Positions 7,332 through 21,817 of a stretch of DNA of 45,068 bases are shown piece by piece; positions within the stretch are counted from its first letter, which is position 1, and every line of letters begins with the position of its first letter. Origin of the DNA: Sulfuritalea sp. Its GTDB lineage: Bacteria > Pseudomonadota > Gammaproteobacteria > Burkholderiales > Rhodocyclaceae. Location: the NCBI GenBank assembly GCA_020048435.1, contig JAIFMO010000076.1, positions 1 through 45,068 on the forward strand, in the 5' to 3' direction. A program made the position numbers and the translations under genes. Below the pieces are notes generated by a model. That model made no database searches and was not told where the DNA came from. It saw only the letters and a program-made list of their open reading frames with translations.

Positions 7332-8246
7332 TCAGGCCGGGCAGCAGCAGACCCGGTTTCTGCCGCCGTCCTTCGCCAGATAGACGGCCTTGTCGGCCAG
7401 CTTGAAAAGATCCTTGGCGCTGGGCGTGGCCGCCGTCATCGCCGCGACGCCCATGCTGGCGGTCATGCGGATCGTCTTTTCTTCGTATTTGATGAGGTGA
7501 CGTTCCAGGGTTGCCCGCATGGATTCCGCCAGTTCGCGCGCGGCGGCCTCGGCATGGCCCGGCAGTAGCGCGACGAATTCCTCACCGCCAAAGCGGCCGA
7601 GCATTCCCCGGTTGGCGGAAACGGCGATCCGCAGGATATTGCTGACTTCGATCAGCACCTGGTCGCCGGCGTCGTGGCCGTGGGTGTCATTGACCCGCTT
7701 GAAGTGATCCAGATCGACGACCAGCAGGCTGAATTCGGTATTCAGCGCGCGCGCCCGCTTGAATTCGGCCTCCATGGCTTCGAGGATGTACCCCTTGTTG
7801 TAGGCCCGGGTCATGGCGTCGGTATGCGCCCGCGATTCCAGCGAGCCGATGTAATGGATTTCCAGTGCCCCTTGCGGCAGAAATTTCAGGATGGTGTCGC
7901 CCACCTTGATCATGTCTTCCTTGCCGAGGGTGACGGAATCACCGCCGCACACCTTGCGATCATTGATATAGGTGCCGTTGGTCGAGCCACCGTCGATCAA
8001 TTTGACGACGCCCCCCTCGTTCTGGATGGTGGCCTGCCGGCGAGATACCTTCGGGTCGTCGATGACGATGTCCGAGGAGGTGTCGCGTCCCACGCTCATC
8101 GAGCGGGCCGACAACTCGTAACGCTTGCCTTGTTGCGTGCCGCGAACAACGATCAGACACGCCGCGCACTGGCTCGCCTTGTTCAATTCGCTGATGAGGA
8201 TATCTTGCGACCCGGCCAACAGGGTAGCGCCGCCGGCGTCCTCCAT
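7332..8246 (-). CDS. FHA domain-containing diguanylate cyclase (GGEEF)
   Basis: FHA core MSVGRDTSSDIVIDDPKVSRRQATI...DGGSTNGTYIND followed by RFGGEEFVALLPG. Confidence 0.9.
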   Translation of the reverse strand: MEDAGGATLLAGSQDILISELNKASQCAACLIVVRGTQQGKRYELSARSMSVGRDTSSDIVIDDPKVSRRQATIQNEGGVVKLIDGGSTNGTYINDRKVCGGDSVTLGKEDMIKVGDTILKFLPQGALEIHYIGSLESRAHTDAMTRAYNKGYILEAMEAEFKRARALNTEFSLLVVDLDHFKRVNDTHGHDAGDQVLIEVSNILRIAVSANRGMLGRFGGEEFVALLPGHAEAAARELAESMRATLERHLIKYEEKTIRMTASMGVAAMTAATPSAKDLFKLADKAVYLAKDGGRNRVCCCPA

Positions 8247-8322
8247 CAGCGGGATTCCCCACGTTGTTTGAGTGTCATGGCGAAAATTTTATCCCGACTT
8301 CGCTGCTTTCGCGCGATATTTC

Positions 8323-8826
8323 CTATCGGGCTTGACGCCCCCTTGGCAAAGGCGTTGGCGCAAGCGCGAAGACCCAGCCGGAATACCCCTGCGCCTTTTC
8401 GAAGTTTTCCATTCCCGGCGGAAAATTGGCCTGACGGATGGGCGCCGCCGCGCTCAAGCTGTGGATGCCGACGACGCGGCCGGCGGGGTCGCGCATCACG
8501 CCCCAATCGAGTTGCCCGGTCATGGGGTCGGGATAGACGCGGCGCAGATGGCGGCGCACGCCGGGGTAACGCGGGTCCCGCAGCAGCTCCGTCAGTTCTT
8601 TCGGCTCGGTCGGCTGGCCGACGGGCGTGGCGTCGGCATAGCTTTGCAGCGCGGCGCGAAACTCCAGTCCGATGGCCAGCAGTTCGGCTTCGACATCCCG
8701 CCGTTGCAGATTGGCGCCGGCGCCGAGCGAGGCGGTCGCGCCGGCGGCGATGAGGGCGACCATGATCAGCAGGCCGATGTAGGTGAAACCGGACTGCCGC
8801 GTCGGCGTGGAGCTACCACTGCGCAT
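8323..8826 (-). CDS. Type II secretion-like (minor) pseudopilin
   Basis: Prepilin-like QSGFTYIGLLIMVALIAAG; operon context; start chosen at MRSGSSTP. Confidence 0.7.
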   Translation of the reverse strand: MRSGSSTPTRQSGFTYIGLLIMVALIAAGATASLGAGANLQRRDVEAELLAIGLEFRAALQSYADATPVGQPTEPKELTELLRDPRYPGVRRHLRRVYPDPMTGQLDWGVMRDPAGRVVGIHSLSAAAPIRQANFPPGMENFEKAQGYSGWVFALAPTPLPRGRQAR

Positions 8827-9184
8827 AGGGCTGGCGGTTGCGGCCGACACCGTGCGCGCGGCTTTTCAGGTCGGCGACGCGGCCATCGGCGCGTGGCGGT
8901 GGCGCGATCAGCGTCCATTCGGTCGAGTTGTCGGCCACCGGATCGACCGGCAGGGAACGCAGGTAGCGCCGCGACACCAGTTCCTCCAGCGATTCCGGAT
9001 AACGGCCGCAATCGGCGTAAAAGTGGTCGATGGCCGTGCGCGCAATACGCAGGTTCTCGGCCAGCACGGTTTCCTTCGAATTGTCGACGCTCTGAAAATA
9101 GCGGGGCGCGGACAGGGACAACAGCATGCCGAGAATGCTCAGCACCACCAGCAATTCGATCAGCGTGAAGCCTTTCATTACCAC
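8813..9184 (-). CDS. Type II secretion-like pseudopilin
   Basis: [22 protein letters not shown] class III signal peptide. Confidence 0.88.
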
Positions 9185-9666
9185 CTCCGGTAATCGACGC
9201 CGTTGAGGCCGACCGTGTCCGCGCGGGAGAAGACGTCGTAGACATCCTCGCCCTCCTTCGGCTCGCTGGCCTCGCTGGCATAGCTGCGCTTGCCCCAGGT
9301 CGCGGCCGCGTCGGCCGTGGCGTCTGGATGCAAGGTGTCCGAGTTCATGGGATCGCGGGGAATACGGCGCAGGAAAAACAGCTTGGCACGCTTCGGGTCG
9401 CGCGCGTCGGTCACGCCCTCGGCCAGTACTGCGAGCGATGGCGGGTAACCGCTGCCACCAGCATTGCGCGCGATGCGGCCCTCGTCGGCAGCGCGCTTGT
9501 AGGCGTCGATGGCGTCGCGAATCTCGCGCAAACTCCGCCGCAATTCCTGCTCGCGGCTGCGTTGCACCGAGACTTCCGCCAGCGGCAGGGCAATGCTGGA
9601 CAGCACGCCGAGAATAGCCAGCGTCGCCACCAGTTCGAGCAGGGTGAAACCCCGCTCCTGTCTCAT
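9178..9666 (-). CDS. Type II secretion-like pseudopilin
   Basis: [24 protein letters not shown] class III signal peptide. Confidence 0.88.
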
Positions 9667-9676
9667 GTTGCCTGCC

Positions 9677-11494
9677 TCATCGCGGCTGGCTGGTCTCGCC
9701 GGCCGCCGCCACCGGCACCGACAGACTTGCCGGCACCGCTTCGGTGAAGGCGGACAGATCGGGGCCGTGCGCGCGCAGGCTGGATTCCGTGCCCGAATCG
9801 AATTCGGTGCGGGCCAGCGCGGGGCGACTCATGCCACGCACCAGGCGCGGGGTGATCGACAGCATCAGCTCGGTCTTCTGGCCGTCGTCGCTGCGGCTGC
9901 CGAAGAGGCGGCCGACGATGGGCAGGTCGCCCAGCCCGGGAATCTTGTTGGCGCTGCTGCGCTCGGAATCGCTGATCAGGCCGGCCAGCACCTGGTTCTC
10001 GCCGTCCTTGAGGCGCAGCACGGTCGATGCGTTGCGGGTGCCAATCTGGTAGGCCAGGGTGCCGGCCTTGGTCTTGATCTGGTCGACGATGTTGCTGACT
10101 TCGAGGTTGATGCGGATGGCCACCTCGTTGTCGAGATAGATGGTCGGCTGCACTTCGAGCTTGAGGCCGACGTCGATGTACTGCACCGATTCGGCGACAA
10201 AGCCGGTGGCAGTGGCCGTAGTGGTGATGTTGGGCACGCGATCGCCAATAAGAATTTTGGCGGTCTCGCGGTTGCGCGCGCGGATGCGCGGGTTGGCCAG
10301 CAGGTTGGTGTCACTGTCGCCTTTCGACGCCGACAGGGTCAGCGGCGTGATGCTGGCGCCCAGGGTGCGCGAGCTGGCGTTGCGGATGTCGGCCAGGGTT
10401 AGCGCGCCGCCGGCCACCGCCGCCAGCGGCGTCAGCGTCAGCAGGTCGGGCCAACGGATGCCGAGATCGAGCAGGCGGCTGCGCTTCACTTCGAGTATTT
10501 CGACGTCGAGCATCACTTCCGGCTCCGGCAGGTCATGCAGGGTCAGCAGCTTCTCGCTCAACCGCACCACCTCGGGCGTGTCGCGCATGACGATCATGTT
10601 CTGCTTCTCGTCGACAACGACGTCCTTGGCCTTGAGGATGGTGCGCAGGGTGGTGGCCACGGTCTTGGCGTCGGCGTTGGTCAGGTAGAAAGTCTTGACG
10701 GTGAGCGGCTGGTGGTCACGCGCCTTGGCCGGCGTGTTGGGATAGACGAGGATGGTGCCGGCGTCGATGACGCGTTGTTCGAGTTGCTGCGACAGCAGCA
10801 CGACCGTCAGGACTTCCTTCACGGTGGCGCGGCGCAGGAACACCGTGGTCGGCTGGTCGGTCTTGACATCCTTGTCGAAAATGAAATTGATGCCCGAGGT
10901 GCGCGCCAGTACCTCGAAGACCTGCTTGATGCTGGCGTCCTTGAATTCAATCGACACCGGCCGTGCCAGGGCGGCGGCCAGCTTGGCATCGGGAACCGGC
11001 GCGACCAGGCTGGCTTCGATGGCGTCGCGCAGTTTGAGCGCCGCCGCGTTGGTCGGCGCCTCGGTCAATACGGCGCGCAGACGCGACAGGGCCGCGTCGG
11101 CATCGCCCCGCCCCCAGGCGGCTTCGGCCTCGATCTGCCATTGCCCGCGGCGGCGCTCCAACTGGGCCGAGTCGATCAGTTTGCGCGCGCGGGCATTGTT
11201 TGGGTCGAGCGTGAGCGCCCGGGCTGCCAGCGCGTCAGCCTCGGCGCGACGCCCGCCGGCCACCGCCTGCTCGGCCTGTCGCAACCACTGGCTGGCCAGC
11301 TGTTCGCGCGTCGATGCCACCGCCAGGCGCGCTTCCGCGCGGTTGGGCGTCTCGCGCAATGCTGCTTCGAAATGCGGCAGGGCTTCGTCGAGCCGACCCT
11401 GCTCGACAAGCTGCTGCCCCTCGCGGAACGGGCTGGTGGCGACGCAGCCGGCCAGGCTGGCGAGCAGAAGGACTATTGCGAAAGCGTGCTTCAT
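9677..11494 (-). CDS. Secretin (GspD/PilQ family) lipoprotein with N-terminal TPR-like region
   Basis: Lipobox [60 protein letters not shown]. Confidence 0.93.
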
Positions 11495-11991
11495 TCTTTG
11501 ATTTCTCCGATGTCGAGCGTGCGCCGCGTCTTGTTGCGGATGTGTTGCAGCGTGAGGTGCGGCGGTTTGATGGCCGCCACCCGATAGTTGTCGCCGAGGG
11601 CGTCGCCCTCGCGCACGACCCAGGTGTCCTCGCCGTGAGCGAGGAAGACAGTCCAGCCGCCCTCATTGCCTTCCGCCAACTGCTTGCCGATGACGCGATA
11701 GGGCAGTGCTTCCGAAAAAGTCGGCGCTAGCGGTACGGCAGTCGGTGGCTCGGCGGGGGCATCGGCGACACGCGGCGGCAGAGCGGCGAAGGGATCGGGG
11801 CCGGGTCTGACCGCGACGGGAAGGTGGCGCGGCGTCAGGGCGCGAAGAAAGACGCCATGATCGGCGCCGCCATCCGGATGCGTGGGGCGAACCGCCGCCA
11901 CGACGGACGTCACCGGCGCGTCACTAAAAACCAGCAACAGCGCGATGCCGGCCAATGCCGCTAGCAGCCAAGGCAGGCGCTTCGTCTTCAT
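11491..11991 (-). CDS. GspC/PilP-like secretion-system accessory protein
   Basis: N-terminal TM, Pro-rich linker, LPYRVIGKQLAEGNEGGWTVFLAHGEDTWVVREGDAL; ATGA overlaps both sides. Confidence 0.6.
   Translation of the reverse strand: MKTKRLPWLLAALAGIALLLVFSDAPVTSVVAAVRPTHPDGGADHGVFLRALTPRHLPVAVRPGPDPFAALPPRVADAPAEPPTAVPLAPTFSEALPYRVIGKQLAEGNEGGWTVFLAHGEDTWVVREGDALGDNYRVAAIKPPHLTLQHIRNKTRRTLDIGEIKE
11715..11740 (-). repeat. Dispersed repeat, short form, copy 3
   Basis: Reverse complement exactly TGCCGTACCGCTAGCGCCGACTTTTT; encodes AVPLAPTFSE. Confidence 0.95.
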
Positions 11992-12518
11992 GGCCGGGGC
12001 TCCGCGTGCGATCCGGTGCGTGCTTCGGTGCGTGCTTCGGTGAAAAAGGCCAGGCGCAGGCGCGCCTCGATGCCGCTGCCGGCAGAGTCGCGCTGAATGG
12101 CGAGATCGTCGATGGCCAGGGCCGGGTGCGCGGCCAGCACTTCGGCGAGGAAGGCGCGGAATTCAGGGTAGGGCCCGCGCACCGGCATTTGCAGGGTGGC
12201 GACGGCATGGCGGCCGGCGGCATTGTTGTCGTCGGCGTAGTCGATGCGGCCGAGCGTCAGGCCATGACGGGCCGCTAAGCCGAGAACGTCGCGCTGACGG
12301 GCGTCGAGTTCGGCGCGTGGCACCAGCATGCCACGAAAGGCGCGATGGCGTTCTTCGAGTTGGCGGCTGCCGTCGACCGCCTCCACGGTGAGTGGGGCCG
12401 GGGCCGGCCACAACGTCGCGGCGCTGGCTATGCCAAGCACCGTGGTGGTCAGCAGCACCAGCGGCAGTGCCCGGCCATGACGGCGCAGCCACAGTTCGAC
12501 GCTCAGGCGCGCGCTCAT
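11988..12518 (-). CDS. PilO/GspM-like inner-membrane protein
   Basis: Single N-terminal TM, coiled region, position in operon; ATGA overlaps. Confidence 0.5.
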   Translation of the reverse strand: MSARLSVELWLRRHGRALPLVLLTTTVLGIASAATLWPAPAPLTVEAVDGSRQLEERHRAFRGMLVPRAELDARQRDVLGLAARHGLTLGRIDYADDNNAAGRHAVATLQMPVRGPYPEFRAFLAEVLAAHPALAIDDLAIQRDSAGSGIEARLRLAFFTEARTEARTGSHAEPRP

Positions 12519-13054
12519 GATGCCTCTTTCAGCCGTAGTTCGAGTGAGAAACGCACGGGATGCGCGGCGGCGCCCTCCCCTACGTCCTGTCTCTCCTGCC
12601 CCAGCAGCACCGCATCGGCGACCTCGGGCAAGCGGCGCAGGCGCACCGGCAGTCCGGCCACGAGGCCGGCATCGCGGGCCTGGCCACTGACACGGATCGT
12701 GGCGCGGCGCGGGTCGGCTTCGGCGCTCAGCAGCAGGCCGTCGTCGCGGCTGTCGAAGGTATTTTCCAGTGCGTCGAGCGCGGCCAGCCAGGGAAAGTTG
12801 AGCTTGCCTGTCGCGGCATCGACGGCCTGAATTTCCTCCCTGCCGGGCAGGGGGCGCCGTTCGCTGCTGGCCATCCCGCTAGCCACCATAGAGCCCGCCT
12901 CGGCCGCCGGCGTCAGCAGCCAGGCGGCGCTCGACACGACGAGCAGCAGCGCCCCGGCGCCGCCAGCCAGCCAGCGCGGGCGGGCGGACAAGCGGGCAGA
13001 CAGGCGCGTGGACAGCGAGCGGCGCGGCGTGAAGTCGAGGTGGAGCGGTTTCAT
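12515..13054 (-). CDS. PilN/GspL-like inner-membrane assembly protein
   Basis: MKPLHLDFTPRR start followed by TM helix; operon context. Confidence 0.5.
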   Translation of the reverse strand: MKPLHLDFTPRRSLSTRLSARLSARPRWLAGGAGALLLVVSSAAWLLTPAAEAGSMVASGMASSERRPLPGREEIQAVDAATGKLNFPWLAALDALENTFDSRDDGLLLSAEADPRRATIRVSGQARDAGLVAGLPVRLRRLPEVADAVLLGQERQDVGEGAAAHPVRFSLELRLKEAS

Positions 13055-13061
13055 TGGAATC

Positions 13062-13673
13062 TCAATGGCAGGCGGCGTCACGCAGGGAGCCGACGACCTG
13101 TTGCCGGCGACCGTCGTCGGTGATGCCGGCCTGGCGGCAATCGCGCCGCAGCAGGGTGCTGAAGCGGGCGGCCGAGCGATCCAGCGGTGGATGCACGCGA
13201 ATGCCGCGCCAGCTGCCGCCGGCGATCAGGCCGATGGTGGTGCTCTCGCGCGAGGCGACACAGAAGGTGGTGTCGGGGCCCAGCGCGCCGCAGTGGCGGT
13301 TGTATTCGCGGATGAAGCGCGGCTGCACGCTGCGCAGCCGCCAACCCTTCTCCTCGGCCAGGCGCGGCAGATCGACGGCGAACAGCGTCGGCAAGGCGCA
13401 GGCCAGCCAGCGATCGGCCCCCGGCAGCGGATCGACGCGAATCACCCAGCCGGCGGGATCGTCGCCGAAAAGCTCGGCGTAACGGTCGGCGGCATAGGCG
13501 TCGAGTTCGGCGGCGCTGGCCAGCCCCGCCGGCCGGTCGAGAATCCAGTAACGGGCCAAGGCGTCGGAAATCAGGATATCGAGCAGCGCGCCCGGGCGTG
13601 GTGGCGGCGCCAAGGGCTCGACGCCCTGCCGCGAGACGCGCAGCTGGACGGCTTCAGTGTTGAAGAGTGACAC
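13062..13673 (-). CDS. Hypothetical secretion-system protein between gspE and the PilN-like gene (possible PilM/GspL-like)
   Basis: Long ORF in operon, overlaps end of gspE by 20 bp. Confidence 0.55.
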   Translation of the reverse strand: MSLFNTEAVQLRVSRQGVEPLAPPPRPGALLDILISDALARYWILDRPAGLASAAELDAYAADRYAELFGDDPAGWVIRVDPLPGADRWLACALPTLFAVDLPRLAEEKGWRLRSVQPRFIREYNRHCGALGPDTTFCVASRESTTIGLIAGGSWRGIRVHPPLDRSAARFSTLLRRDCRQAGITDDGRRQQVVGSLRDAACH

Positions 13674-15228
13674 GGGCGACCTCCTCCAGGGTGGTGAGAC
13701 CCTCGCGGGCCAGTTGCAGGGCGGCGTCGCGCAGACTGCGCGTGCCCTGGCGGTACGCTTCGGCCTTGATTTCGGCCAGCGGCGCGCGTTGGGCTATCAG
13801 GGTACGCAGACGGTCGTCGAGTGCCAGGATCTCGGCAACCGCCCGACGTCCCCGATAGCCAGTGCCGCGACACTCGCCACAACCCCGGCCCTGGCGGAAG
13901 TTACCCATGTCAGGATGGGCGGCCTCCGCGGACAGGTTGAGGGCGGCCAGCGCGCGTGAAGACGGGGTGACGGGTTCGGCGCACTGCGGGCAGACCGAGC
14001 GCAACAACCGCTGCGCCCAGACGCCGTTGAGCGCCGAGGTAAGGGAATAGGGATCGATGCCCATGTGGGCGAAGCGGCTGAAGACGTCGAAGACATGATT
14101 GGCATGCACGGTCGACAGCACCAGGTGACCGGTCAGCGCCGACTGCACGGCGATCTCGGCGGTTTCGGCGTCGCGGATCTCGCCGATCATGATCTTGTCC
14201 GGGTCGTGGCGCAGGATGGAACGCAGCCCGCGGGCAAAAGTGAGCCCCTTCTTGTCGTTGACGGGAATCTGCAAGACGCCAGCCAGTTCGTATTCGACCG
14301 GGTCTTCGATGGTGACGATCTTGTCGCGGCCGTCGTGAATTTCGGACAGCACGCCGTAGAGCGTGGTGGTCTTGCCGCTGCCGGTCGGACCGGTGACCAG
14401 CAGCATGCCGTAGGGCTGGCTCGCCAGCGCACGCATGCGGGCGAGATCGGCGGCGGCGAAGCCGAGGCCTTCGAGCCGCAGCGATTCGCCATCGGGCACC
14501 AGCCGGCGCTTGTCGAGAATGCGCAGCACGGCATCCTCGCCGTGGATGCTCGGCATGATGGACAGGCGCAGGTCGATGCGGCGGCCCGCCAGCCGCACCG
14601 GGAAGCGGCCATCCTGCGGCACGCGGCGTTCGGCGATGTCGAGTTCGGCCAGTACCTTGAGCCGCGAGATGGCCTGTTCGGCAATTTCGCGACCAACGGC
14701 CCCGCCGACTTTCTCCAGCACGCCGTCGATGCGGTAGCGGATGTCGAGGCCGGCCGGGGTGGCTTCGAAATGAATGTCGCTGACGCCGAGTTTGAGCGCG
14801 TCGTGGATGGTCGAGTTCACCAGGCGGACGACGGGGCTGGCATCCTGGCCGATGCGCGCCAGCGAGACTTCCTCGCCGCGCTCTGCCGTACCGCTAGTCC
14901 CACGGGGATTCCCTTCGGTCACGCCACCGACTTTTTGGGGTGCCGGTTGTGCCAGGGTCGCCAGCGCCGACACGGAGTGCGCCTGACGGGAGAGCCAGGA
15001 GCCGAGATCGGCGGGGTCAGCCGCCAGTGGATCGTCGAATACGGCGATGAGGCGCTGGCCGTCGCGGAACAGGGCGCAGCGGCGCGCCTGCGCCTCGGCC
15101 AGCGGCAGGCGGTCGAAGGCCGGTGTCAGTCGATGCAGTTGCAGCAGCGTCGCGGGCGGGAAATCGGGATCGCGCAGCAGGTCGGCGGCAAGCGTGGCGG
15201 AAAGTGGGAAAGGCAGGGGGGCGTTCAT
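13654..15228 (-). CDS. gspE: GspE/PilB-type secretion ATPase
   Basis: GPTGSGKTTTLYGVL Walker A, TIEDPVEYEL, MIGEIRDAETAEIAVQSALTGHLVLSTVHAN, zinc CPQC...CGEC. Confidence 0.96.
   Translation of the reverse strand: MNAPLPFPLSATLAADLLRDPDFPPATLLQLHRLTPAFDRLPLAEAQARRCALFRDGQRLIAVFDDPLAADPADLGSWLSRQAHSVSALATLAQPAPQKVGGVTEGNPRGTSGTAERGEEVSLARIGQDASPVVRLVNSTIHDALKLGVSDIHFEATPAGLDIRYRIDGVLEKVGGAVGREIAEQAISRLKVLAELDIAERRVPQDGRFPVRLAGRRIDLRLSIMPSIHGEDAVLRILDKRRLVPDGESLRLEGLGFAAADLARMRALASQPYGMLLVTGPTGSGKTTTLYGVLSEIHDGRDKIVTIEDPVEYELAGVLQIPVNDKKGLTFARGLRSILRHDPDKIMIGEIRDAETAEIAVQSALTGHLVLSTVHANHVFDVFSRFAHMGIDPYSLTSALNGVWAQRLLRSVCPQCAEPVTPSSRALAALNLSAEAAHPDMGNFRQGRGCGECRGTGYRGRRAVAEILALDDRLRTLIAQRAPLAEIKAEAYRQGTRSLRDAALQLAREGLTTLEEVARVTLQH
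14884..14936 (+). repeat. Dispersed repeat, long form, copy 4 (inside gspE)
   Basis: TGCCGTACCGCTAGTCCCACGGGGATTCCCTTCGGTCACGCCACCGACTTTTT; encodes KVGGVTEGNPRGTSGTA. Confidence 0.93.
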
Positions 15229-16409
15229 CGCAGACTCCCGGCAAGGTCGAAGATGGGCAGATAGAGCAGCACGACGATGGTACCGACGACGATGCCGATG
15301 GCCGCCATCAGGATCGGCTCGAAGGCGCGGGCGAAGAAATCGATGCGCCGGGCAATTTCGCTATCGTGGAAGCGCGCCGCCCGCCCCATCATTTCGCCAA
15401 GGCGGCCGCTGCGCTCGCCGACGCGCAGCATGCGCAGCGCCACCGGCGTCACCAGCGCGGCAGCCGCGAAGGCTTGCGACACGCTTTCGCCGCGACCGAT
15501 GGCGGCGGCGGCGGCGCGATAGCGCGGCAGTGTTGCCGCCGTCAGCAGCCCCTCGGCCAGCTGCATCGCCTGCAGGATGGGCAGGCCGCCTTCGAGCAGC
15601 ATGCCGAGCGAGAGATACAGCCGCGCCAGTTCGAAGGTAACGATGGTGTCGCCGATGCCGGGCAGGCGTCGCAGCAATGTCTGCGGCCCATCGCCACGCC
15701 ACCAGCGTTTGCCGGCGAAGAACCCGGCCACCAGCGTGGCGACTGAACCCAGCGCCAGTGGCTGGCCCTGCTTGGCGACGAAGCTGCCCCAGACCATCAG
15801 TTGCCGCGACAGCCAGGGCAGCTCACGGCCGGTGCCCTGATACACGCCGGCGAAGCGTGGCACAACGTGACCGAGCAGGAAGAGCGTTACCAGCAGGCCG
15901 ACTACCGCAAGGATGGTCGGATAGATCAGCGCACTGACGACGCGACCGCGCACGGCGTCGAGGCGGGCCCGGTAGTCGATGTAGCGCGACAGCGACTCGG
16001 GCAGGTTCGAGGTGCGCTCGGCCGCGCGCATCAGCCCGATGTACAACGCAGGGAAGTGCTCGGGCTGCGCCGCGAGGGCGGCCGAAAAGCGCAGGCCCTC
16101 GTCGAGCGCGCGCGCCAGACGTTCGAGCACGAGGCGGCTGTCGGTCCGCTGTTCCTTGTCGTGCAGCGCCTCGATGGCCTCGGTCAGCGACAGACCGGCT
16201 TCGAGCAGCGCCAGCAGTTCCTGGCTGAAGAGTTGCAGGGAAAAGCTATTGCGGCGCGGCCATTGCGGCAGGGTTTGGGTGGCCGCGGTCACCGACAAGG
16301 GCCGCAGGGATTGCGCGCTCACTTGCGCGCGCGCGGCGTCGACATCGGCCGCGTCCACCGTCACGGTGACGACGCCGGCGCTGCCAATGGCCCTGATCGC
16401 GTAAAGCAT
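15225..16409 (-). CDS. gspF: GspF-type inner-membrane platform protein
   Basis: LFSQELLALLEAGLSLTEAIEAL, GLPILQAMQLAE, FARAFEPILMAAIGIVVGTIVVLLYLPIF; ATGA overlap with gspE. Confidence 0.94.
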   Translation of the reverse strand: MLYAIRAIGSAGVVTVTVDAADVDAARAQVSAQSLRPLSVTAATQTLPQWPRRNSFSLQLFSQELLALLEAGLSLTEAIEALHDKEQRTDSRLVLERLARALDEGLRFSAALAAQPEHFPALYIGLMRAAERTSNLPESLSRYIDYRARLDAVRGRVVSALIYPTILAVVGLLVTLFLLGHVVPRFAGVYQGTGRELPWLSRQLMVWGSFVAKQGQPLALGSVATLVAGFFAGKRWWRGDGPQTLLRRLPGIGDTIVTFELARLYLSLGMLLEGGLPILQAMQLAEGLLTAATLPRYRAAAAAIGRGESVSQAFAAAALVTPVALRMLRVGERSGRLGEMMGRAARFHDSEIARRIDFFARAFEPILMAAIGIVVGTIVVLLYLPIFDLAGSLR

Positions 16410-16410
16410 G

Positions 16411-16815
16411 TCAGTAAGCGATGTCGGTGTTGTCGCCGCTGCCGCCGGGCGCGCCGTCGCGGCCGAGAGAAATCAGGTCGAAGTCACCCTTGGCGCCGGG
16501 CGTTCGATAGACATAGGGCTTGCCCCAGGGGTCGGCGGGCACGTCCTTCTGCAAATAGGGACCGCTCCATTTGGCCTCGCCGGCCGGCCGTTCGCGCAGG
16601 GCCGCAAGGCCTTGGGACGAGGAAGGATAATGGCCGCTGTCGAGACGATAGGTATCGAGCGCCTTCGCCAGCGCCTCGATCTGGGCGCGGGCCGCCGCTG
16701 TTTCCGACTTGCCGATTTGCGAAAAGTAGCGCGGCCCCACGTAGGCAGCCAGCAGGCCGATGATGGCAACCACTACCAGCAGTTCCAGCAAGGTGAAGCC
16801 GCGCCCTTTTTTCAT
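16411..16815 (-). CDS. gspG: GspG-type major pseudopilin
   Basis: [58 protein letters not shown]. Confidence 0.95.
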   Translation of the reverse strand: MKKGRGFTLLELLVVVAIIGLLAAYVGPRYFSQIGKSETAAARAQIEALAKALDTYRLDSGHYPSSSQGLAALRERPAGEAKWSGPYLQKDVPADPWGKPYVYRTPGAKGDFDLISLGRDGAPGGSGDNTDIAY

Positions 16816-18128
16816 GCGAAGGAATCTGCCATCAGGGCGGTGAACCACTTCGTCATCTCTTCGAAGTTGTCCTTCGAGCGCGCCGCCGCCTCGCCCGAAG
16901 ACGCGGCCACCGGTTGCATGGTTTTCGTCAGCGGGTCGTAGGCGAAGGTGGCGGTGAGCCAGGAGGCGGTATCGGCGGTGATCGGCGAGTAGCAGGCCGA
17001 GTTGGTCTGCGGCGCGGCGTCGGGCAGGCGGCCGGAGAGCAGCCGCAGGATGGCGTCGGCGCAAACCTTGGCTTCCTGGTTGGCGATGTGGCCGGCCTTG
17101 GGCTGCGTCGTGGCCGCGGCGTCACCGATGACGTGGATGCCCGGCGCGACTGTCGCCTCGTAGGACAACACGTCGACGCTGGTCCATTTGCCGCCGGCGT
17201 CGGCCAGACCGTTGGCGGCGATCACCTTGCCGGCGCGATGCGGCGGGATGAGGTTGAGGACGTTGCCGCGGATGTTGCCGATATTGGTGTTCACCGTCAT
17301 CGTCGTCGTGTCGACGCTGGCGATGGCAACGCCCGGGTGATATTCGATCACGCCCTGATGCACCACATCAAAGGCATCGGTGAAGGAATGCACTTCGGCG
17401 GTGATGCCGGGGTTGGCGTCGAGCACGATCACCTTCGAGCCGGGGCGGTTGCGCTTGAGCCAGTCGGCGACGAGGCAGGCACGCTCGTAGGGCCCGGGCG
17501 GGCAGCGGTAGGGTTTGGGCGGGATGCTCAAGACGAAGACACCGCCGTTGGGCATGGCGGTGATCATGTTGCGCAGCGCGGTGGTCTGCGGGCCCGTTTT
17601 CCAGGCGTGCGGCGCCTTGGCCTGCGCGGCGGCGGTTTCGAGGCCGGGCAGCAGGTCGAAGTCGACGCCGGGGGCGACGACGAGGCGGTCATAGGCCAGG
17701 CGGCTACCGCCGGCCAGCGTAACGGCGCGCCCGACCGGGTCGATGGCGGTGACGTCGCCCTTGACGACTTTGACCCCGTAGCGACTGGCGAGATTGCCGT
17801 AACCGTACTGGAGCGACGTGACGGTGCGGCTGCCGTTAAGCACCAGGTTGCTCATGATGTTGGAGGTATAGGAGGTATCGCGCTCGACCAGGGTTACATC
17901 GACGCCGGTGCCGCCCCAGTAGCGCAGATATTTTGCCGCGGTGGCGCCGGCCATGCCACCGCCGATGACGACAACACGGCCCTTGATGCCGGTACCGGTG
18001 GGTACGCCGGCCGCCACCGTGGCAGTCCCGCGCTTGCCATCGGCGGCAGCCAGCAGGCTCCAGCCAGCGGCGGTGAGGCTGATGCCGGCGCCGCCGGCCC
18101 ATTTGATGAAATCTCTGCGTTTGACCAT
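16812..18128 (-). CDS. Flavocytochrome c sulfide dehydrogenase-like flavoprotein (FccB/SoxF-like), Tat signal
   Basis: RRDFIKWAGGAG Tat motif; VVVIGGGMAGATAAKYLR; HVIGDAAATTQPKAGHIANQEAKV; adjacent cytochrome c. Confidence 0.85.
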   Translation of the reverse strand: MVKRRDFIKWAGGAGISLTAAGWSLLAAADGKRGTATVAAGVPTGTGIKGRVVVIGGGMAGATAAKYLRYWGGTGVDVTLVERDTSYTSNIMSNLVLNGSRTVTSLQYGYGNLASRYGVKVVKGDVTAIDPVGRAVTLAGGSRLAYDRLVVAPGVDFDLLPGLETAAAQAKAPHAWKTGPQTTALRNMITAMPNGGVFVLSIPPKPYRCPPGPYERACLVADWLKRNRPGSKVIVLDANPGITAEVHSFTDAFDVVHQGVIEYHPGVAIASVDTTTMTVNTNIGNIRGNVLNLIPPHRAGKVIAANGLADAGGKWTSVDVLSYEATVAPGIHVIGDAAATTQPKAGHIANQEAKVCADAILRLLSGRLPDAAPQTNSACYSPITADTASWLTATFAYDPLTKTMQPVAASSGEAAARSKDNFEEMTKWFTALMADSFA

Positions 18129-18142
18129 GATGGGTTCCTTTT

Positions 18143-18445
18143 TCAACGCTGCGAGGCGAAGTAGTTGGCGATCAGTTGAAGTTGGGCGTCGGTGTAGCCA
18201 CGGGCGTGCATGTCCATCATCTTCGGTGGCGTTTTCCGCTGCATTTCGCGCAATTCGCCGATGATTTCTTTGGCCGACATGCCGGCCAGCCGCTCGAAAC
18301 CGCCACTGCCGTTGGTGCCGTGGCATTGGAAACAGTTGGAGGCGAGTAAGCGCCCGCTGGGCGGGGCCGGGGCCGTGGTCTGGGCGAATGCGGGTGCCGC
18401 CGCCAGGGCCAGTACCAGCCCGCGAATGATCTTGCCGTTGTTCAT
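18143..18445 (-). CDS. Class I monoheme cytochrome c (FccA-like partner)
   Basis: Signal peptide, SNCFQCHGTNGSGG heme motif, distal Met region PKMMDMHARGYTDAQLQLIANYFA. Confidence 0.85.
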   Translation of the reverse strand: MNNGKIIRGLVLALAAAPAFAQTTAPAPPSGRLLASNCFQCHGTNGSGGFERLAGMSAKEIIGELREMQRKTPPKMMDMHARGYTDAQLQLIANYFASQR

Positions 18446-18587
18446 GGAAGCTCCTTGTTCTTGTTTCGGGGATGCCGCTCGCTGGCGGCGCTGGGTGGCG
18501 CTCCTGGCGTGGCGCCGTGTTTCGGTTCGCATGATCGCCATCGCGATCCGTCCGCGCTACTGTCGCCAAACCCCAACACTTTGGCGG

Positions 18588-18618
18588 CACGGCCGCATGC
18601 TTTAGCATTGCGGCCGTG
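18588..18618 (+). promoter_or_regulatory. 13-bp stem-loop ending exactly at the GTG start of the sensor kinase
   Basis: CACGGCCGCATGC-TTTA-GCATTGCGGCCGTG, one bulged T. Confidence 0.55.
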
Positions 18619-20028
18619 AATCTCTATCCGCGTTCCTTTCTCCGCCTGATCCTGCTCGGCTATGCGCTGGTGGCGCTGCCACTGCTGGCTGCCATCGGCT
18701 ACGTCTCGGTCGGCCTCAACGCCATCGCCGACCGTAGCGCGGCCGCCGTGCAGCAGGCCTCGCTGACGGCCCGGCTTGGCTGGGAACTGCCGGAACAACT
18801 CCAACACATGGAACGCAGCCTGCGGCAGTACGAAGTGCTGCACGACGCCTCGCTGCTCGATGATTACGAAACCTCGCGGCGCGAGTGGCGGCAGAACAGC
18901 GAAGAATTTGCCCGCGTCCCCCTGCTGGCGCCCATCGCGCGCCGCATCGGCGACATGCTGGCAACCGAAGCCGCCGCTCGCCATAAATTTGCGCCGGAGG
19001 CGATCAAGCCGTTGCGCGAAACCGTGACGGCGCTCAAGACGACCACCATTACGCTGCTGAACGAGGCCGGTCGCCTGGTCGACGCCGAGCGTGTCGCCTT
19101 TCGCGGCGAAGCCGAGGCCTTGCGTCACCGGCTCTTTCTCGCCCTGGCCCTGGCGCTCGCGCTGGCTGTCGTCATGTTCTGGTTCGGTCGCCGCGTGCTG
19201 GCGCGCCTGTTGAGCCGAGTCGAACGCGCCGTGATTGCACTTGGCCAAAATCGGCTCGATCGCAGCATCCGCCTCAAGGGGCCGGAAGATCTGCAATGGG
19301 TCGGTCGCCGCCTCGACTGGTTGCGCCGCCGCTTGCTGGCGCTGGAAGAGCAACGCACGCGTATCCTGCGCCATGTCTCGCACGAACTGAAAACGCCGCT
19401 GGCCGCGCTGCGCGAGGGTTCCAGCCTGCTCAACGAAGGCGTGGCCGGCCCGCTATCGCCGCAGCAGGCGAGGATTGCCGGCATCATGCAGGGCAACGCG
19501 CTACGCCTGCAAACCCTGATCGATGGCTTGCTCAAGATGCAGCAGGCAGGGCATGTGCGCGATCGCTTCGAGCCGGTGGCGCTCCGGCTCGACGAACTGA
19601 TCCAGCAGGTGCTGGACACGCATCAGCTTGCCGCGAGGAACAAGCGCCTGCATATTTCCGGTACGCTGGCGCCGCTGACGGTGGCCGGCGGCCGCGAAGA
19701 AATGACGACGATACTCGACAACCTGATTTCGAATGCCATCAAGTTTTCGCCAGAGGATGGGCTGGTGCGGCTGACGCTGACGCGCGCAGGCGATCGCGCG
19801 TTGGTCGACGTGATCGATCAGGGCCCCGGCGTGCCCGAGGCCGACCGCGAGAAAATTTTCGAACCTTTCTACCGTGGCGCCGCTTCCAAGGGCGTGGCTG
19901 GTATCGGTCTCGGCCTGGCCATTACCCGCGAATTTGTCGCCGCCCATCGCGGTTCGCTGGACCTGGTGGCCTCGCCAGCGGGCACTCACTTCCGCGCCGC
20001 GCTGCCGCTCGCCGGGAGCACGACATGA
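18616..20028 (+). CDS. Sensor histidine kinase, QseE/GlrK-like
   Basis: HVSHELKTPLAALREGSSLL, ILDNLISNAIKFSPEDG, GIGLGLAITREFV; followed by lipoprotein and AAA+ regulator as in glrK-qseG-glrR. Confidence 0.88.
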   Translation: MNLYPRSFLRLILLGYALVALPLLAAIGYVSVGLNAIADRSAAAVQQASLTARLGWELPEQLQHMERSLRQYEVLHDASLLDDYETSRREWRQNSEEFARVPLLAPIARRIGDMLATEAAARHKFAPEAIKPLRETVTALKTTTITLLNEAGRLVDAERVAFRGEAEALRHRLFLALALALALAVVMFWFGRRVLARLLSRVERAVIALGQNRLDRSIRLKGPEDLQWVGRRLDWLRRRLLALEEQRTRILRHVSHELKTPLAALREGSSLLNEGVAGPLSPQQARIAGIMQGNALRLQTLIDGLLKMQQAGHVRDRFEPVALRLDELIQQVLDTHQLAARNKRLHISGTLAPLTVAGGREEMTTILDNLISNAIKFSPEDGLVRLTLTRAGDRALVDVIDQGPGVPEADREKIFEPFYRGAASKGVAGIGLGLAITREFVAAHRGSLDLVASPAGTHFRAALPLAGSTT

Positions 20029-20507
20029 GGCCGCGCCGGATTATCGCCATGCTGGCCGTGACGCTGGCCGTGGTATTGGGGCTGGGCGGTTGCGCCGGTT
20101 CGCCCTGGACGGGCGAATCGCAGGAGGTGTTGGGACTGCTCGACTATTACGAGCGCCTCAACGCCATGCCGCCGGACGAGCAGCGCCGCGAGCATGTGGC
20201 GGCCCAAGCCGCCTTCGAGCGGCAACCCGGCGACTTGCAACGCCTGCGTCTGGTCATGTTGCTGGCGCTGCCGCGCGCGCCCTGGCGCGACGATGCACGC
20301 CTGCTGCATCTTCTCGGCGGCCTGGAACCCACGCCCGCCGAGCGGATATCGCCCCGCCGCGAACTGGCGCTGCTGATCCAGAAGCTGGTCGGTGACAGGC
20401 AGCGCCTGCTGCGCGGTGAGCAGAAGAAGGTGGAGGATGCGCAGCAGAAGCTGGATGCGCTGCGCGCCATCGACCGCGAACTCCAGCAAAAGCAATCCGG
20501 CCGATGA
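20025..20507 (+). CDS. QseG-like lipoprotein
   Basis: Lipobox LGLGGCAGS; coiled C-terminus; ATGA overlaps with kinase and regulator. Confidence 0.65.
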   Translation: MRPRRIIAMLAVTLAVVLGLGGCAGSPWTGESQEVLGLLDYYERLNAMPPDEQRREHVAAQAAFERQPGDLQRLRLVMLLALPRAPWRDDARLLHLLGGLEPTPAERISPRRELALLIQKLVGDRQRLLRGEQKKVEDAQQKLDALRAIDRELQQKQSGR

Positions 20508-21817
20508 GCGCCAGCGAAACGCCGGCGCGGATTCCACGGATACTCGTGGTCGATGACGACCCCGACCTGCTCGAATTGATCGGCATGCGGCTGACGGCGG
20601 GCGGTTACGAGGTGGCGCTGGCCGCCTCCGGCGCCGAGGCGCTCGACATCTTCCGCGCCGAACGGCCCCGCGCCGTCATCACCGACCTGCGCATGGACGG
20701 CATGGATGGCCACGCGTTGTTCGACCGCCTGCACGCCGAAGCGCCGAGCGTACCGGTCATCATCCTCACCGCCCACGGCACCATTCCGGATGCCGTGGCG
20801 GCGACCCAGCGCGGCGTGTTCGGTTTTCTCACCAAGCCTTTTGACGGTCGCGAACTGCTGGCGCGGGTCGGCGAGGCCGTGGCGCTGTCGCCATCCATCC
20901 AGGCGGCCGATGGCGATGCCAGCTGGCGCGCCGACCTTGTTTCCGCCAGCCCGCTGCTGGATGAACTGCTGCGGCAGGCCCGCCGCCTGGCCGCCAGCGA
21001 CGAACCGCTACTCGTTACCGGCGCGCGTGGCACCGGCAAGGAGCAACTGGCCCGCGCCATTCACGCCGCCAGTCCGCGTGCGCGCAAGCCCTTCGTTGTC
21101 ATGCGTTGCGGCCCGCAAGCGGATGTTGCCGACGAGGATGCGTTATTTGCCGAGGCGCTCGCCGCTACCCGTGGCGGCACCTTGTTTCTCGACGACGTCG
21201 ACGCCCTCGCCCCCAGCGTGCAGGTGCGATTACTGCCGTGGGTGCGCGAACCTGGCCTGTTCGCGCCCAAGCGCAACGCAGGTCCCTCCATTCGCGTCAT
21301 TGCCGCGACCTCGCAGCCGCTGGATCAGGCCATCCGCGACGGTGATTTTCGCGCTGACCTGTTCTACGCCCTCAACCAAACCGCGCTGGCGGTGCCCGGC
21401 CTGCCCGAGCGGCGCGAGGATATTCCCCTGCTGGTGACCCATTTCAGCCAGCGCTGGGGCGAGCGCAATCCGGGAATCATGCGTGGCTTTGCCCCGGATG
21501 CGATTGCGCTGTTGCAGGAGGCACCGTGGCCAGGGCATGTGCGTCAACTACGCAACGTCGTCGAACAGGCCCTGGGCCAAACGGTTACGGCAATCATTCC
21601 CGCAACGCTGCTCAGGCGTTTGCTGCGGGAAGACAACGAACGCGAAATGACCGCCTTCGACGATGCACGGCGGGCCTTCGAGTACGAGTATCTGGTGGAA
21701 CTGCTGACCACCACTACCGGCAACGTGGCGCGCGCCGCGCGCATTGCCCAGCGCAACCGCACCGAGTTCTACAAACTGCTGGCCCGCCACAACCTGGAGC
21801 CGGCGGCGTTCAAGTAA
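20504..21817 (+). CDS. NtrC-family response regulator, QseF/GlrR-like, lacking the GAFTGA segment
   Basis: Receiver DDDPDLLELI...ITDLRMDGMDG...KPFDGRELL; Walker A GARGTGKE; Walker B GGTLFLDDVD; Fis HTH NVARAARIAQRNRTEFYKLLARH. Confidence 0.85.
   Translation: MSASETPARIPRILVVDDDPDLLELIGMRLTAGGYEVALAASGAEALDIFRAERPRAVITDLRMDGMDGHALFDRLHAEAPSVPVIILTAHGTIPDAVAATQRGVFGFLTKPFDGRELLARVGEAVALSPSIQAADGDASWRADLVSASPLLDELLRQARRLAASDEPLLVTGARGTGKEQLARAIHAASPRARKPFVVMRCGPQADVADEDALFAEALAATRGGTLFLDDVDALAPSVQVRLLPWVREPGLFAPKRNAGPSIRVIAATSQPLDQAIRDGDFRADLFYALNQTALAVPGLPERREDIPLLVTHFSQRWGERNPGIMRGFAPDAIALLQEAPWPGHVRQLRNVVEQALGQTVTAIIPATLLRRLLREDNEREMTAFDDARRAFEYEYLVELLTTTTGNVARAARIAQRNRTEFYKLLARHNLEPAAFK

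Follow-up and report, generated by a model that had tools for sequence, protein, structure and literature searches.

The window, a 45,068-nt stretch of DNA from Sulfuritalea sp. (family Rhodocyclaceae), corresponds to contig C74 in a draft genome of 3.05 Mb (G000). On its minus strand, genes run from 18445 to 8323 in the order fccA-like, fccB-like, gspG, gspF, gspE, x1, x2, x3, x4, gspD and three minor pseudopilins, where x1 to x4 denote assembly genes with few or no direct domain matches, which were assigned through relatives and fold. Divergent from them lie the genes of a two-component system (kinase and response regulator) and of a small lipoprotein. The features were as follows:

20504..21817, plus strand: GlrR/QseF-like response regulator, without the GAFTGA sigma-54 loop
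20049..20507, plus strand: small lipoprotein, QseG-like by position, between kinase and regulator
18616..20028, plus strand: histidine kinase encoded divergently from fccA, GlrK/QseE-like in its context
18561..18578, minus strand: operator candidate TGTTGGGGTTTGGCGACA, an inverted repeat between the divergent kinase gene and fccA
18143..18445, minus strand: fccA-like monoheme c-type cytochrome of 100 aa (one CxxCH, signal peptide)
16812..18128, minus strand: fccB-like flavoprotein of 438 aa (Tat-type N-terminus, FCSD_central 2.3e-35)
16411..16815, minus strand: gspG, major pseudopilin (T2SSG 3.2e-40)
15225..16409, minus strand: gspF, inner-membrane platform protein (T2SSF 7.5e-43)
13654..15228, minus strand: gspE, ATPase (T2SSE match)
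13062..13673, minus strand: x1, PilM-like protein or cytoplasmic half of GspL, actin-like fold (AlphaFold and Foldseek)
12515..13054, minus strand: x2, PilN-like protein or periplasmic half of GspL (PilN profile in relatives, Foldseek)
11988..12518, minus strand: x3, GspM subtype b, PilO-like (T2SSM_b 2.3e-5, above the Pfam cut-off)
11491..11991, minus strand: x4, probable GspC/PilP-like protein (position, size, one N-terminal hydrophobic segment)
9677..11494, minus strand: gspD, secretin carrying a lipobox and a TPR region at its N-terminus (Secretin 1.6e-40, STN, Secretin_N, TPR)
9178..9666, minus strand: minor pseudopilin 1 (N_methyl 7.1e-8)
8813..9178, minus strand: minor pseudopilin 2, GspG-like, with a GFxxxE motif, kept in relatives
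8323..8826, minus strand: minor pseudopilin 3, divergent (position and sequence conserved)
7332..8246, minus strand: FHA-GGDEF gene, downstream neighbour

Spacings within the unit all fell between -20 and +14 nt. The fccB stop and the gspG start shared an ATGA at 16812-16815, exactly where the original prediction had placed it, and no promoter or terminator pattern was seen between the two genes. The chain of ATGA overlaps claimed further downstream was confirmed at gspF/gspE, x2/x3, x3/x4 and x4/gspD, but was interrupted by a 20-nt overlap at gspE/x1 and a 7-nt gap at x1/x2; other short gaps separated fccA from fccB (14 nt), gspG from gspF (1 nt) and gspD from the first minor pseudopilin gene (10 nt). 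The conserved unit ended at 8323 with the third minor pseudopilin. Pseudopilin genes had been expected downstream and were present, but the one at 8813-9178 had been overlooked, so the unit encodes GspG plus three minor pseudopilins. The FHA-GGDEF gene, previously counted in the operon, follows the last pseudopilin gene after a 76-nt gap; it had no counterpart at the equivalent position in related coupled loci, and it was therefore rejected as an operon member and placed outside the conserved unit.

The fccB gene sits in an open frame of 598 codons, but its actual start lies at 18128, with the Tat motif RRDFIKW. FccB aligned across most of its length with three solved flavoproteins of flavocytochrome c sulfide dehydrogenase (FCSD; 1fcd, 3vrd and 5n1t), and its closest solved structures were all FCSD flavoproteins. 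With these it shares the domain architecture, the RCPPGPYE motif and a c-type cytochrome partner; an fccA-like gene adjoined almost every FccB-like relative. In contrast to FCSD, FccA of the locus is short and monoheme, and FccB lacks both the FAD-linking cysteine, whose column holds Asn90, and the second redox cysteine, the first of the pair being kept (Cys209) and the second being Thr in GKWTSVD. The FAD cysteine was also missing from many relatives of the locus FccB. The earlier description of the pair as sulfide dehydrogenase-like held for the FCSD domain and the cytochrome partner, but of the three cysteines that function in sulfide dehydrogenase, only one remains. By domain and residue content, FccAB of the locus is a non-canonical FCSD relative, and domain matches alone are insufficient to annotate such a flavocytochrome lineage as sulfide dehydrogenase. 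On contig C109, downstream of a multiheme cytochrome gene, the same genome also encodes a canonical FccAB (L207, 3496-5383), which retains all three functional cysteines and has a longer cytochrome. At a further locus (L048, 4869-8212), by-eye reading showed small PepSY-like proteins, a cytochrome b561-like protein and a two-component system encoded downstream of an FccAB-like pair; a regulator and kinase also lay downstream at other FccB-like loci.

The only GspG found in the genome is that of the coupled locus, and the best solved relatives of the gspE product were GspE proteins of type II secretion systems (T2SS), with PilB of type IV pili (T4P) a close second. Reading the machine as an MSHA pilus or T4P was rejected because GspG is present and GspE matches T2SS. 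Since a Pfam search of x1 returned no useful match, fold prediction was applied, and the AlphaFold model (pLDDT 91.7) had PilM and cyto-EpsL/PulL among its top Foldseek matches. The PilN profile matched 12 of 15 relatives of x2 (best 1.4e-6), and Foldseek gave weak matches of x2 to EpsL/XcpY periplasmic domains. The x3 product also matched the GspM/XpsM model at 1.4e-5, below the NCBIfam cut-off, while one weak T2SSC match (0.035) was obtained among the relatives of x4, which is probably GspC. GspL and GspM thus have equivalents here: x1 and x2 together are a split GspL, and x3 is GspM. The secretin scored below the NCBIfam cut-offs of both the GspD and PilQ models, so its subtype is ambiguous. 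No prepilin peptidase lay within the operon, as had been stated, but one is encoded on contig C161 of the genome (G000:C161:7414-7728).

In common with T2SS (Gsp/Xcp/Xps), the locus has a T2SSG-domain GspG, GspE, GspF, a secretin, GspM, GspL-type folds and minor pseudopilins, with the prepilin peptidase encoded elsewhere in the genome. It differs from them in the division of GspL into PilM-like and PilN-like proteins, in the gene order (G-F-E-L'-L''-M-C-D-pseudopilins, with fccAB in front), in the N-terminal TPR region of the secretin, and in three minor pseudopilins without one-to-one H/I/J/K assignment. The split PilM-PilN-PilO-PilP-secretin order is shared with type IVa/MSHA pilus assembly (PilMNOPQ), whereas the GspG-type major subunit and an operon without a retraction ATPase set the locus apart from it. 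Judged by sequence and fold, the secretion module is a genuine T2SS and, going by GspG, the sole one of the genome. The predicted T2SS-type operon, with fccAB-like genes in front and a non-canonical gene order, was upheld.

A neighbourhood check for fccAB-gsp adjacency in relatives, proposed together with the original prediction, found the coupling kept in ten genomes (the source and nine others) belonging to four genera; its recurrence in nine other genomes indicates that it is not a product of chance. The refuting outcome named with that prediction, a complete lack of the adjacency among related genomes, did not occur. The ATGA overlap at fccB/gspG was present in 8 of the 10 (G000, G046, G080, G019, G160, G211, G344 and G355, the contigs of G344 and G355 stopping within the gsp genes), and the two genes were separated by about 150 nt in G016 and about 60 nt in G362. 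The overlap was retained in eight species although FccB had fallen to 78-86% identity. In the GspE tree, which took in eight usable coupled genomes, the coupled genomes formed one clade (support 100/100) that neighbours family T2SS without fccAB. The FccB tree fitted a single joining event, with poor resolution at that part. Two other genomes of the host's own genus carried neither fccAB nor the T2SS module. Across about 85,000 species genomes, a set that may omit close relatives of the source genome, gsp genes within 5 kb downstream were found for 0 of the 78 FccB copies having at least 1.5 kb downstream (best 79 loci). A Hydrogenophilus locus (L111) was rejected as a coupled case: its E/F/D-like genes (31-47% identity) lie upstream of fccAB, and the order differs.

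Each module was also found on its own. Three genomes (G008, G114 and G099) carried fccAB and the kinase/regulator without adjacent gsp genes. The fccAB orthologs of G008 (71% identity) and G114 (68%) had the same divergent regulators, and a secretin search at 1e-40 in these two genomes gave no match. Genes adjoining stand-alone fccAB were unrelated housekeeping genes (purB-like, phaC, recA) that gave no functional pointer. The T2SS operon, in turn, occurred without fccAB in about 20 relatives, and in several of these, carbohydrate-binding, glycoside-hydrolase-like or heparinase-like proteins of 1000-1770 aa were encoded near gspG. Such large CBM25/CBM20/GH2/heparinase-like neighbours were located at L075 14371-19089, L076 1956-6665, L079 4434-9740 and L084 14367-18320. 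Their position is suggestive of T2SS cargo, and such neighbours would be expected of a general enzyme exporter. The earlier proposal that the locus serves dedicated export or extracellular redox activity was not supported, because fccAB and the T2SS each occur alone, the latter in several relatives near carbohydrate-active proteins.

Upstream of fccA, the pattern TGTY-N10-GACA was detected in 13 of 13 kinase-linked loci, with exact TGTC in 11 and TGTT in 2 (the source locus and L044). Among about 80 fccB copies of the collection scan that have no close kinase, one had the pattern upstream, and it was not found near the G066 kinase, where fccAB is absent. The published GlrR/QseF site is TGTC-N10-GACA (PMC4987338, PMC8745638). 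As a DNA pattern, the conserved site 5' of fccA, newly noted in this analysis, matches that published operator; the TGTT at the source locus, in place of TGTC, counts against GlrR-like control. The locus shares with the GlrK-QseG-GlrR (QseE-QseG-QseF) system this site and the kinase-lipoprotein-regulator order, an assignment that rests on gene order and DNA site and not on a family model. It differs from that system in that its genes adjoin fccAB, not glmY, and its regulator lacks GAFTGA, a loop missing in all 14 of 14 regulator orthologs read. Sigma-54 activation requires the GAFTGA loop, and enterobacterial GlrR acts via sigma-54. Control by regulators without the loop is therefore probably not via sigma-54, and its absence agrees with a sigma-54 promoter search upstream of fccA, which yielded no convincing -24/-12 element. 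Taken together, the gene order and the site suggest that the fccAB unit is probably controlled by the neighbouring GlrK-QseG-GlrR-like system.

We consider it fairly probable that the locus is a two-module operon, in which GlrR-type-controlled fccAB and a T2SS were joined once and are both switched on together. The first module would be a periplasmic flavocytochrome-c-like pair, probably under the divergent GlrK-QseG-GlrR-like system via TGTC-N10-GACA, and the second a complete T2SS of a form common in the family. In a single lineage, the T2SS operon would have become attached behind GlrR-controlled fccAB, with translational coupling retained since; as a consequence of this joining, gspG would be translated from the fccB stop, and T2SS transcription would be expected from the fccA promoter. 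FccAB would pass electrons from a periplasmic donor to cytochrome c, the T2SS would export folded proteins encoded elsewhere, and the same signal would switch on both modules. From the DNA we infer that there is a single transcript, that the GlrR-like regulator binds the site, and what the two modules do.

The adjacency might instead be a neutral relic of gene order, the modules being independent in transcription and use. The occurrence of fccAB and the T2SS apart from each other, as well as the wider fccB-gspG gaps in G016 and G362, would fit such a relic; however, the 4-nt overlap kept in eight species despite the divergence of FccB, and the junction devoid of a promoter or terminator pattern, make it unlikely. 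An ordinary FCSD that oxidises sulfide and precedes a T2SS operon by chance would account for the FCSD_central match and for the closest solved structures, but not for the Cys-to-Asn change at FAD attachment, the Cys-to-Thr change at the second redox cysteine, or the canonical three-cysteine FccAB on contig C109, and we regard it as very unlikely.

FccAB-like proteins could also be cargo or an electron-transfer partner of the T2SS, folded FAD/heme proteins being carried to the surface for extracellular redox activity. T2SS exports folded periplasmic proteins, and FccB carries a Tat motif; the coupling is conserved across ten genomes, and, unlike several relatives, the coupled lineage has no obvious substrate gene beside the operon. 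Yet fccAB orthologs under the same regulators are found in genomes without a secretin match, FccAB-like pairs are widespread without gsp genes (none of the scanned copies had them close downstream), and the locus holds no outer-membrane or multiheme partner, so that a role as cargo or partner seems quite unlikely. A point against the two-module reading is that an overlap preserved while the sequences diverged could signal a tighter functional tie than common regulation. Redox-coupled secretion, with a disulfide-less flavocytochrome acting as T2SS cargo or as redox setter of cargo or pseudopilus under a non-sigma-54 GlrR-like regulator, is distinctly improbable in our estimation. The two-module operon under common control is, in our view, the most parsimonious reading.

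In a literature search that left subscription journals mostly outside, no paper describing a flavocytochrome c with a pseudopilin, or with a T2SS in Rhodocyclaceae, was found. The parts are of known kinds, and their combination appears undescribed. The locus links a periplasmic electron-transfer enzyme to protein secretion machinery in a conserved way that can be tested, supplies a candidate regulator and operator, and exemplifies a T2SS whose GspL is split as in pilus systems. A side finding concerns genus g20: two of its genomes encode another, shorter GspE-like ATPase (about 55% identity) directly 3' of the last pseudopilin (L040, 3383-4573; L041, 3286-4485).
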